NCBI GenBank assembly: GCA_002869925.2
Contig: NEWT02000037.1
Location: forward strand, 60,822-102,473
Length of the DNA: 41,652 bases
Direction: 5' to 3'
DNA from: Nitrospira sp. CG24A
Lineage (GTDB): Bacteria > Nitrospirota > Nitrospiria > Nitrospirales > Nitrospiraceae
A program made the translations under genes and the position numbers. The notes under the pieces were generated by a model. The model saw only the letters and a program-made list of their open reading frames with translations, did no database searches and was not told where the DNA came from. Shown in pieces: positions 3,289-40,250 of this stretch (positions are counted from its first letter, which is position 1; each line of letters starts with the position of its first letter).

Positions 3289-3443
3289 ATATCTATTTTA
3301 CAGAAGGCCGTGGCAGAAGTCCCTTCCGCCTCTTCGACGAACTCGCTATAATCCGCTAAGCATTCCAGCAGGCTGAGAAAAACTCAGGTAATGCCAACAA
3401 TATGGCTGGAACGGTCCGTACGGTGCTGACGCCAGAATAACAT

Positions 3444-3567
3444 CAGGATGCTCAAAAAGGCTGTCCAGCAAGGCCGCAGCGAGCGAAGAGGCGAGGCGTA
3501 CGCTTCAGTACGTTGAGCCTCTGAGGGATGCGAGAACGCTGCTGGCAGACTTTTTCAGCATCCTGCG
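3444..3567. repeat. Dispersed repeat, best full copy (about 124 bp)
   Basis: The left arm caggatgctcaaaaaggctg (3444 on) is the near-complement of the right arm ending tttttcagcatcctgc. An inner inverted pair, gaggcg...gcctc, flanks gtacgcttcagtac. The element can fold into one long hairpin. Its right end sits only a few bases from the ribosome binding site of the M20 peptidase, so it forms part of that gene's leader. Confidence 0.8.
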
Positions 3568-3580
3568 AGGAGAATGACCC

Positions 3581-13962: not shown

Positions 13963-14200
13963 GCGGATTTGAAGAGCTGGAATAGGCTAGGGGGCTCTAC
14001 GAGTAATTTCTCGCCGTTCTTCTAGCGGTAGTCGAAAACTATTTTTCCACGAAGAAACATAAGCCTGAAGGAAGTCCTACACGGCTTTAGCACAACCCCG
14101 CAGGCGTACCCTCTGGGGCGCACGGTGCGACGAATAAGGAGCACCACGTCTGTGCGCGCCGCCGAGTAAGTGAGGCGGCCGGGTCCCCGTTGAGGGCTGA
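13963..14200. other. Intergenic gap, nothing clear
   Basis: This stretch contains decayed repeat-like sequence (gtgaggcggccgggtccccgt) leading into the repeat that follows. I see no gene or clear control site. Confidence 0.4.
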
Positions 14201-14243
14201 ACGATGCGAGAACGATGCTGGCGGGATTTTTCAACAGCCTGCT
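14201..14243. repeat. Dispersed repeat, one arm
   Basis: gatgcgagaacgatgctggc followed by gggatttttcaacagcctgc matches the right arm of the element at 3444-3567. It lies immediately after the cupredoxin stop codon and may help end that operon's transcript. Confidence 0.65.
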
Positions 14244-14245
14244 AG

Positions 14246-14647
14246 TTATTCGACGACGATGACGGCCCGCATCTCATGACCTGGCATGTCGCATAGGTAT
14301 GAAAAGGTTCCGGTGCGTGCCGGCGTAAGCTGAAATTCGATGAGGCCGTCAGGCGGGATGATCACTTTCTTGAGTCCTTCCGGACCGAACTCCGGGGCTC
14401 CGTTACCAGCCAGGTTGAGGTCGTCGCTCAGGAAAAGTTCCTTGGCGACGACGGTGTGGAGTTCTGTATCGTGGTTGCGGAACCGCAGCACAGTTTTGCG
14501 ACCCTGATGCAGGTGGATCTGTTGTGGAGTGAACATCCGCGAGCGGATCTCTACGGTAACCGACTCCATCTCCAACTCAGTTGCGAGCGCAACGGTGGGG
14601 GTCGCGAGCACGAGCGCCAGGCCTATGACCCAGCGCGCGCCTTTCAC
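14246..14647 (-). CDS. Exported cupredoxin (type 1 copper protein)
   Basis: I start at GTG 14647, whose GTGA overlaps the anti-sigma stop; the frame upstream of it is only the shadow of that gene. The protein has a signal peptide (WVIGLALVLATPTVALA). The cupredoxin barrel has copper ligands in order: His in TELHTVVA, then Cys, His and Met in YLCDMPGHEM at the C-terminus. It is about 133 residues, with the long HxxxxC spacing of periplasmic plastocyanin-like domains. It probably binds or transfers copper or electrons in the periplasm. Its place as the third gene of a sigma/anti-sigma operon hints that it is involved in the stress being sensed or is a target. Confidence 0.85.
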   Translation of the reverse strand: MKGARWVIGLALVLATPTVALATELEMESVTVEIRSRMFTPQQIHLHQGRKTVLRFRNHDTELHTVVAKELFLSDDLNLAGNGAPEFGPEGLKKVIIPPDGLIEFQLTPARTGTFSYLCDMPGHEMRAVIVVE

Positions 14648-37567: not shown

Positions 37568-37804
37568 ATGGCGATCATTATCACCACCATGTTTTTGCTA
37601 CTGCCGGTGCTCGTTGCCCTGTACCTCTCTGTGTCCGGCGTGTTCACCAATCGGAGGTCGTTTCAGTCTGTCTTTTATGCCCTGTTGGCCTTCTTTGCGC
37701 TGACTGTTGGGATCAGCTTGAGCATTCAATATTCCTACCAAAGCTACGATCCCCCGGCAACAACCCCGGTTTCGCTGAGTGAGGTTCTGTCAAAAACTCT
37801 ATGA
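37568..37804 (+). CDS. Small membrane protein
   Basis: The 78-residue protein starts at ATG 37568 with GGAGG ahead. It has two membrane helices (IIITTMFLLLPVLVALYLSV and YALLAFFALTVGISLSIQY). No family is recognised. It overlaps the end of the facing gene by 6 bp. Confidence 0.6.
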   Translation: MAIIITTMFLLLPVLVALYLSVSGVFTNRRSFQSVFYALLAFFALTVGISLSIQYSYQSYDPPATTPVSLSEVLSKTL

Positions 37805-39064
37805 ATAGAGGGCGCGAACGATCGTCGTCGTATTGAACAGCATCGCGTTCAGGCGGGTGTAGGCTGCGTGACCATAGTAGTGATCGCGCACATTCGTTGA
37901 CCCCGTGGAATCTTGATAGTCGGCGAGAATCCCCAGTCCCTCACTCGGGATACGGACAGCACGGCGGGCACATTCGAGCCATCGTTCGAATCCATCAAAC
38001 GGCTCAACCATTTCCCACAGAGCTTTGTTTGCTGCTTTTGCCGGCTCGGTCGTCGGCACGGCGTCGCTGCCGGCTACGGCCAGTTCCTGCACGTAGTCGC
38101 CGCCCCATGCAATCGGCATCTCCATTGTGATCTGAGGTAATTCCATTTTCGAGAGCCATGTTTTGCCGTCGGTTCGCATGGTGCGATGGTTCACGATATG
38201 CAGCAGCTTGCCGAGGTCTGATGGATCCCATCCGTATCGCACCGGCATGCCAAACGTGACGATGTCCAGCGCTGCTCCATTGAGAAAGGTGCCGTTCGAC
38301 AGCAACGGAACGACACGTTGGATTGTCGAGATGATGTCTGGTCGATTGATCTGCGAGGCAAAAGCCGACAAGAGATCGAATAGACGCATCCGGCTACTAT
38401 TCGCGGTCACACATAAGAGGTTTGAGACGAGAGCGAGGATTAGTCCCGCCTGCCCATGAGCCTGTACCAGGATGCGATCTCCTTGGCCCAGCTTGTGTGC
38501 CTCGACCCAGTCGCGAAGACGTCCGAGCATTGAGACAGCCGCCATGGCACGGCCCAGGTGATGGTGTTCGCAGGACCAGAGTTCACGGACGCAATGGATC
38601 GGGCGTTCGAGACCTTGGTTAAGCGATTGCCTCATCAGTTCCGCATAGACGTCCGTAAAGTTTCCTGCGTCGCCGAGCTGATCGTCGAGGAGGTCCTTGG
38701 TCGGCTTATCATTGGCGAGCGGTGACTTTAACCCACCGGGCAGCGGGGGAATGCCATTGCTGCCTTCACGCATCAGGGCCAATAAGGCATCGAGCCCCGC
38801 CACGCCGCGTGAGTAGCCCCGTTTGAGCCCGCCCAGTTCATCCAACCGCTGTACCCCGAACAGGTCGGTTCCCATGACGGAGCCGTGTAGCAAGACGATC
38901 ACGCGGACACCGGCTTGCGACAACGTAGTCCCACATTGCGCCATGGCGTCGAGCCAAGCTGGAGCACCGGGCTCCAGGCCCGGCGTCAGTTCCGCTATGG
39001 CGAGACGGTCGCCGGGGTTCTTCCGCGACAGCTCATCGTATTGGAAATTATTCTCAATCGGCAT
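37799..39064 (-). CDS. Alpha/beta-hydrolase-like protein without the usual serine
   Basis: I start at ATG 39064; the frame extends to 39136, but those residues (MADCFSILL) are translated dispersed repeat. The 421-residue protein has the oxyanion-turn-like VIVLLHGSVMGTD and then ILVQAHGQAGLILAL at the place of the nucleophile elbow, where GxSxG reads AHGQAG. C-terminal HYYGHAAYTRLN holds candidate His. It is probably a lipase-fold protein that lost or moved its nucleophile. No signal peptide is seen. The function is unknown. Confidence 0.65.
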   Translation of the reverse strand: MPIENNFQYDELSRKNPGDRLAIAELTPGLEPGAPAWLDAMAQCGTTLSQAGVRVIVLLHGSVMGTDLFGVQRLDELGGLKRGYSRGVAGLDALLALMREGSNGIPPLPGGLKSPLANDKPTKDLLDDQLGDAGNFTDVYAELMRQSLNQGLERPIHCVRELWSCEHHHLGRAMAAVSMLGRLRDWVEAHKLGQGDRILVQAHGQAGLILALVSNLLCVTANSSRMRLFDLLSAFASQINRPDIISTIQRVVPLLSNGTFLNGAALDIVTFGMPVRYGWDPSDLGKLLHIVNHRTMRTDGKTWLSKMELPQITMEMPIAWGGDYVQELAVAGSDAVPTTEPAKAANKALWEMVEPFDGFERWLECARRAVRIPSEGLGILADYQDSTGSTNVRDHYYGHAAYTRLNAMLFNTTTIVRALYS

Positions 39065-39111
39065 GCGGGAGTTACATACCCGATGTTGGCAACGCACTGC
39101 AACGAAAGACA

Positions 39112-39135
39112 GCAGGATGCTGAAACAGTCCGCCA
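39112..39135. repeat. Dispersed repeat fragment at the 5' end of the hydrolase-like gene
   Basis: gcaggatgctgaaacagtcc then gcca matches the end of the element at 3444-3567. It provides false extra codons to the gene frame. Confidence 0.65.
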
Positions 39136-39258
39136 AACCTCCGGGCAGGTGCGGTTCAGTAAGGTGCCGCAGCGGATTAGGAGTACATTCTTTTCGAAAT
39201 CGTTCTCGTCTTGCACGGTGCCATTCGACTTGCGATAGCCTCTCTGAGTGAATCGGAG

Positions 39259-39495: not shown

Positions 39496-40053
39496 ATGAA
39501 CATCAGGATGCGTGTAGGAATGGGGAGCATCGTGCTCATGCTGGGCGGACTGCTCCTGGCAGGTTGCGGGTCAATGGCGCAGAGCGCGGCGGTGATCGAC
39601 CTGAGCGGCGTCACCCAGAACTGGGATAAGGTGATTCCTGCGGCGCAGCGCTTCGTGGTGCTGCCGGCCTTCAACAACGACGCGGTTCGGGATAACGAAA
39701 CCGGCCTGGTGTGGGAGCAATCCCCCTCGACCGCGACGAATGACTGGACCAACGCACGGTTCGAATGTGCCCGCCGCACCACCGGCGGCCGCCAAGGCTG
39801 GCGCCTGCCCTCGGTGCACGAGCTGGCCAGTCTGGTCGATCCGTCCGTCGCAGCACCGGGCCCGACCATCCCGGCTGGCCATCCCTTTACCAACGTCCAG
39901 TCGTCCCACTATTGGTCGGCGGCGACGTCCGCAGACTTTCCAACGAGCGCGTGGCTCGTGTTCTTCGGCAGTGGCGACGTGTTCACCTCCGTTAAGGCCG
40001 GCAGCCTCCACGCTTGGTGTGTTCGTGGGGGCATGAATGCGGATACGTATTGA
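39496..40053 (+). CDS. DUF1566 (Lcl) lipoprotein, probable DGR variable protein
   Basis: I start at ATG 39496 (CAGGAGG ahead). The 185-residue protein has lipobox LLAGC (MGSIVLMLGGLLLAGC). The DUF1566/CLec-like domain shows NETGLVWEQSP, GGRQGWRLPSVHELASLVD and SSHYWSAATSADFPTSAW, and ends HAWCVRGG. In DGR targets this last part is the variable region. The codons expected to vary here (AGC, CTC, TTC, TTC, GGC, AGT, GAC, TTC, TCC, GTT, GGC, AGC, CTC, CAC) all end in C or T, as when AAC/AAT template codons mutate at A. It is surface-exposed, probably for binding ligands. The promoter is of sigma-54 type. Confidence 0.8.
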   Translation: MNIRMRVGMGSIVLMLGGLLLAGCGSMAQSAAVIDLSGVTQNWDKVIPAAQRFVVLPAFNNDAVRDNETGLVWEQSPSTATNDWTNARFECARRTTGGRQGWRLPSVHELASLVDPSVAAPGPTIPAGHPFTNVQSSHYWSAATSADFPTSAWLVFFGSGDVFTSVKAGSLHAWCVRGGMNADTY

Positions 40054-40082
40054 TCATTCGGTGATTGGAGTGGTTTGGACAT

Positions 40083-40120
40083 TCGGGGGCGGACCGGGGG
40101 CGTGAGCCCCCTGCCCGCCG
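40083..40120. other. GC-rich hairpin downstream of variable region (DGR homing-site-like)
   Basis: GGGGGC-GTGA-GCCCCC (40096-40111) is a perfect 6-bp stem with a 4-base loop, inside outer arms GGCGG (40088-40092) / CCGCC (40115-40119). DGR targets carry a G/C run and a hairpin of this kind just after the variable region. It could also end the transcript. Confidence 0.6.
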
Positions 40121-40174
40121 ATGGATCAAGCATCAACGTCGTACTGACTGCTGACCACTGAAAGTGTTCTTGCT

Positions 40175-40250
40175 ATGGCCCGCTACGAACACCTGCCCAT
40201 TTACAAGACCACCATGGACTTGGCCGTGTATCTCGAACAGGTTAGCGGAT
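40175..40250 (+). pseudogene. Truncated avd gene (DGR accessory protein, N-terminal 24 codons)
   Basis: From ATG 40175 the frame reads MARYEHLPIYKTTMDLAVYL and EQV, the conserved start of Avd / four-helix-bundle proteins in DGRs. After about 40240 similarity stops where the facing gene's stop codon (40242) begins; the frame then continues only as antisense of that gene. Avd normally has about 110-130 residues and four helices; only the first helix is left. The deletion likely removed the rest, plus template repeat and reverse transcriptase. Confidence 0.7.

Follow-up and report, generated by a model that had tools for sequence, protein, structure and literature searches.

Genes and features at the locus

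The window, that is, the whole analyzed DNA stretch of 41,652 nucleotides, contains a gene for an Lcl_C lipoprotein, followed on the same strand by a GC-rich hairpin and the beginning of an avd gene, and flanked on either side by a gene on the opposite strand. The following features were delineated (positions are those of the window):

37799 to 39136, minus strand: conserved upstream neighbor and syntenic flank, function unassigned, with 68% identical homologs in the same place at loci L001 and L132
39496 to 40053, plus strand: former target gene of a diversity-generating retroelement (DGR), coding for an Lcl_C lipoprotein (open reading frame, Pfam PF07603, AlphaFold model)
39556 to 39567, plus strand: lipobox LAGC, residues 21-24, from a consensus reading of the sequence only
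39907 to 40032, plus strand: probably frozen variable region, where NNY stands at 17 of the 18 codons that align to AAY in the L212 template repeat
40083 to 40119, plus strand: GC-rich hairpin (fold), with its inner stem at 40096-40111 and a GTGA loop, about 45 bases past the target stop codon
40175 to 40243, plus strand: avd stub, first 23 codons, MARYEHLPIYKTTMDLAVYLEQV (tblastn with the avd of relatives; DNA matches)
40241 to 40244, no strand: presumed deletion junction, where avd homology ends at the LPP20 stop codon
40242 to 40709, minus strand: LPP20-like lipoprotein gene, syntenic flank outside the cassette (Pfam LPP20, 22.5 bits, below cut-off; synteny with L001 and L132)

The target product comprises 185 amino acids, and its C-terminal half corresponds to the Lcl_C (DUF1566, C-type-lectin) domain, matching PF07603 with 89.6 bits (E 2e-25; curated cut-off 34.9). 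Together with the LAGC lipobox, this match bears out the first-pass annotation, in which a DUF1566/CLec-type lipoprotein had been described. DUF1566 is reported as the commonest Pfam domain among DGR targets (PMC6642488). A structure predicted with AlphaFold from 27 homologs (mean pLDDT 81.6) had as its best match in the PDB the C-terminal domain of Legionella Lcl (8q4e, E 2.9e-5), followed by many C-type lectins, and on this model the target domain is predicted to have a C-type-lectin fold; a sequence search of the PDB using the family profile gave no match. Relatives of the target were not found in phages and viral contigs, nor were relatives of avd found in plasmids and phages.

The GC hairpin claimed earlier to follow the target is present, and its inner part (GGGGGC-GTGA-GCCCCC, 40096-40111) was the single match to the pattern in the window, with 0 matches in 100 shuffles. 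It deviates, however, from the published DGR hairpin located past the variable region, which has a stem of 7-10 bp and a GRNA loop (PMC3240598), as the inner stem here is 6 bp long (plus an outer stem) and the loop is GTGA; possibly, it is a plain terminator. GC hairpins with differing stem sequences also lie 30-64 bases past the target stop at seven other loci (L118, L027, L100, L111, L024, L123, and L128). The avd reading frame starts with the ATG at 40175, and homology stops after codon 23, at 40243, precisely where the convergent LPP20 gene has its stop codon (40242-40244, minus strand). An avd start is thus there as previously noted, but the gene is not "beheaded": its 5' end is kept and the remainder is lost, and 23 rather than 24 codons match. 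The junction was presumably made by deletion.

Elsewhere in the window, a dispersed repeat resembling a REP-type element occurs at about 688-770, 1743-1800, 3443-3577, and 14188-14246, with ends like CAGGATGCTGAAAAAG and the core CCAGCAAGGCCGCAGCGAG, and this repeat is also found near several homologous loci. The segment 765-1631, 38 kb from the target, holds a 260-codon open frame (853-1632), and its counterpart, 75-83% identical, adjoins Lcl_C genes of an old frozen group (L082-L086, L030).

Codon footprint of the variable region

The variable sites were defined by the template of L212 (genome G350), an intact Lcl_C-type DGR that belongs to a different family of this phylum, and were not chosen from the target gene itself. 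The L212 template repeat (TR) differs from its own variable region (VR) by 24 mismatches, 20 of which fall at template A, and it aligned without gaps to 42 codons of the window target. Codons ending in C or T (NNY) were found at 17 of the 18 sites matched to template AAY, and the template third base was retained at 16 of the 18. By comparison, NNY codons make up 10 of the 24 elsewhere in the variable region (Fisher P 4e-4 versus AAY sites) and 53% of those upstream in the target gene (binomial P 1.6e-4 for 17/18). The target differs from the L212 template at 31 of 45 A positions and at 17 of 81 non-A positions. Hence, the earlier claim of NNY-coded variable sites holds at independently set positions, except that the ACG codon at 39943, formerly counted as a conserved site, aligns to a template AAY and is the sole non-NNY codon among the 18. 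An NNY excess is common to most of the 53 aligned homologous genes, with one group at background (about 9/18). The A-linked pattern is visible only against the template of another genome, as the window's own genome offers none. The NNY codons at template-AAY sites, together with the C-type-lectin-fold domain, support the view that the gene is a former DGR target.

The window's genome contains three Lcl_C genes of the former-target type, this target included. The other two (C28:30285-30803 and C40:51830-52318; L094, L095) show the NNY footprint at 15/18 and 16/18 sites, respectively, and neither avd nor reverse transcriptase (RT) is nearby. Since they share the footprint, the genome appears to hold three frozen DGR targets; the window gene is not alone.

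Remains of the cassette in the genome and its relatives

A genome search for a DGR-clade RT and a template mismatched at A, as proposed in the first-pass annotation, found neither in the window's own genome (assembly about 95% complete, 40 contigs); remnants were found in relatives. No RT matched Pfam RVT_1, BPP-1 Brt, or a sister-genus DGR RT, and DNA similarity revealed no template repeat; a 48-base template pattern (N at variable sites, 3 mismatches) matched two Lcl_C genes only. With an avd reduced to 23 codons, the genome thus shows none of three marks of an active DGR: a DGR-clade RT, a TR matching the variable region with mismatches at A, and a complete avd. A match to PF22296 (bAvd) in this genome (C29:335553) was set aside as a four-helix-bundle type protein with no adjoining target or RT, and the remaining PF22296 matches in the genus were set aside as a group, without a one-by-one check.

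A search of 32 genomes from the genus yielded only remnants and not a single DGR-type RT. The RTs at L058, L059, and L061-L063 were inspected and are not of DGR type, and the other RT matches in the genus were rejected as frames of about 420-600 amino acids resembling group II intron or other RTs, a classification based on length and a weak Brt match only. Intact DGRs of the family occur in other genera, and their readable templates serve formylglycine-enzyme-type targets. In sister genera, intact DGRs (L171-L173, L176, L177, L179, L182-L185) have targets of this type and a different template, located behind the RT start. Because target and template type differ (where readable), these systems are an unlikely source of the variable region.

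Intact cassettes with an Lcl_C target, avd, TR, and RT are present in other families of the phylum (L212, L216, L218, L221, and L222), which, along with partial cassettes in relatives, agrees with the standard order cited earlier. Their avd begins MARYEHLPIYK or MAQYEHLPIY, the TR adjoins the RT, and TR/VR mismatches are mostly at A in L212, L218, L221, and L222. Within the family, avd remnants were detected in 8 of 175 genomes, none of them complete, and in 7 of the 8 an Lcl_C gene adjoins. In genome G004, a target gene is accompanied by an avd stub, about 44 codons long and interrupted by a stop, with an RT pseudogene directly behind it (E 5e-11), whereas in G121 an RT pseudogene with in-frame stops lies between two Lcl_C genes. 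In G021, one contig (C414, L097) carries a target, a stop-containing avd, and a 5' piece of the TR, GTCCAGTCGGCCACCTAGTGGTCGGCGGCGACGAACGTAGACAATCCG, running into an end sequence, and another (C224, L230) has near its start the inverse of the C414 end (96.7% over 30 bases), followed by a 3' piece of the TR and an RT pseudogene. Although the two contigs are not joined, this arrangement suggests a template split by an insertion sequence. In the 3' piece, CAC, ACC, and AGC replace the AAC of intact templates.

Two loci syntenic with the window share its two neighbors: at L001, the target is kept and avd is absent, and in G140, the avd stub is kept and the target is absent. Judged from these gene arrangements, the three loci would be best explained by one ancestral cassette that eroded differently in each lineage.

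Fate of the variable region and known systems

The window target was compared with its syntenic counterpart in L001, which belongs to another genus. At the AAY sites, 17 of 18 residues are identical, versus 62% in the upstream part, and the 18 codons show zero synonymous change, versus a pS of 0.41 upstream. Across the homologs, AAY-site identity is about 11% between groups (scaffold about 67%), while within most groups it reaches 75-98%, near scaffold values, although the groups were set by eye from variable-region sequences, so that within-group site identity is partly built in. Less directly dependent on this grouping are the synteny of the window-L001 pair and the replacement/silent ratio: pN/pS was 0.03-0.33 in groups of more than two members, with one exception of 0.55, whereas active variable regions usually have values above 1 (PMC8144416). 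Such conservation between species supports the view that diversification of the target has stopped.

We therefore consider it most probable (about 0.9) that the target is a DGR fossil, frozen after loss of the machinery, whose last variant was kept as a constrained surface lectin. The observed basis consists of the NNY footprint, the avd stub, the lack of any RT or TR in the assembly, the remnants and intact cassettes of relatives, and the conservation of residues at the frozen sites. In this account, a cassette with a gene for an Lcl_C lipoprotein target, avd, TR, and RT would have stood at this chromosomal place in an ancestor. RT and Avd would have made copies of the template in which adenines were replaced by random bases, and these copies would have overwritten the target's 3' end, so that AAY template codons gave rise to NNY codons. 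The cassette would then have been lost stepwise, until this genome lacked the whole stretch starting at avd codon 24 and reaching up to the LPP20 gene end. An intact target, the hairpin, and the avd stub would be left over, and the target could no longer be diversified. The frozen target is probably kept by purifying selection, and its product may bind a ligand at the cell surface.

Three other readings were weighed against this one. The first-pass annotation had left open whether the target is frozen or diversified in trans, and an RT and template could indeed lie on a mobile element or in the 5% or so of the genome that the assembly lacks; sister genera do have intact DGRs, and the L001 genome itself has an intact DGR RT elsewhere. 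Yet the genome searches and the 32 genus genomes yielded no DGR-type RT, the readable sister-genus templates serve formylglycine-enzyme-type targets, and an active DGR would scramble first the very residues that the window shares with L001. Given the loss of RT and TR and the codons conserved in L001, the target is better regarded as frozen, and diversification in trans, for which no support emerged, is improbable. It is still harder to credit an ordinary Lcl_C lectin without DGR history, with NNY reflecting codon bias at exposed loops. The encoded residues alone would give 11.9 NNY codons out of 18, and one homolog group is at background, but the observed excess is significant even given those residues (P 0.003), the template third base recurs at 16 sites, avd, TR, and RT have left remnants next to homologs, and intact DGRs share the gene order.

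A weightier alternative, though on balance an unlikely one, accepts the fossil target and attributes the identity of its variable region with L001 to recent DNA exchange between lineages instead of long selection. Positions 39943-39997 (55 bases) are identical to L001 5442-5496, while outside this run the gene is about 70% identical between the two genera, and, taken with the lack of synonymous change at the 18 codons, this run possibly fits local DNA exchange and not selection alone. On the other hand, the two genes occupy equivalent positions by synteny, and both a 16-gene group (with the C28 paralog) and the C40 pair combine conserved residues with normal synonymous divergence. For the genus as a whole, we give even odds that a DGR generated Lcl_C receptor variants and was then lost, leaving at least eight separately frozen variants, most of them held by purifying selection at once-hypervariable sites.

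If the window target is a fossil of this kind, it speaks to the fate of a hypervariable protein after loss of its machine: its final variants seem to turn into ordinary genes under constraint. Proteins made by DGRs are usually studied as population diversity, and their long-term fate could thereby be tested in nitrifying bacteria; NNY at template-AAY sites plus an avd stub forms a simple footprint for finding further relics, and a fading NNY excess might serve as a clock for the time since freezing.

A search of the open-licence literature gave no publication on remnants of DGRs in Nitrospira. The locus, as far as it is kept, follows the order of the DGR of Bordetella phage BPP-1 (target, hairpin, avd, TR, and RT; PMC3240598), which, however, is active in a phage, has another target (mtd), and carries a hairpin with a stem of 8 bp. 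The intact Lcl_C cassettes of the phylum have the same target domain but keep the complete avd, TR, and RT that the target here is without. In Treponema denticola, target genes are left in isolates without RT and TR (PMC4891356), and, as here, they were recognized because their differences from templates carried by other isolates are A-linked. That loss is at strain level, and sister strains of the one species keep intact DGRs, unlike the genus described here, where the 32 searched genomes yielded no DGR-type RT; moreover, avd, TR, and RT remnants persist here in relatives, and frozen variants are conserved between species and genera. Machinery is likewise missing or pseudogenized at degenerate DGR loci in Thiohalocapsa PB-PSB1 (PMC10907252), but that genome still has complete loci of their class, which could act in trans, whereas none were found here. 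Leftover targets and degenerate loci were thus already known from these two systems; what is new is the record of stepwise loss, along with several frozen variants long retained across a genus.
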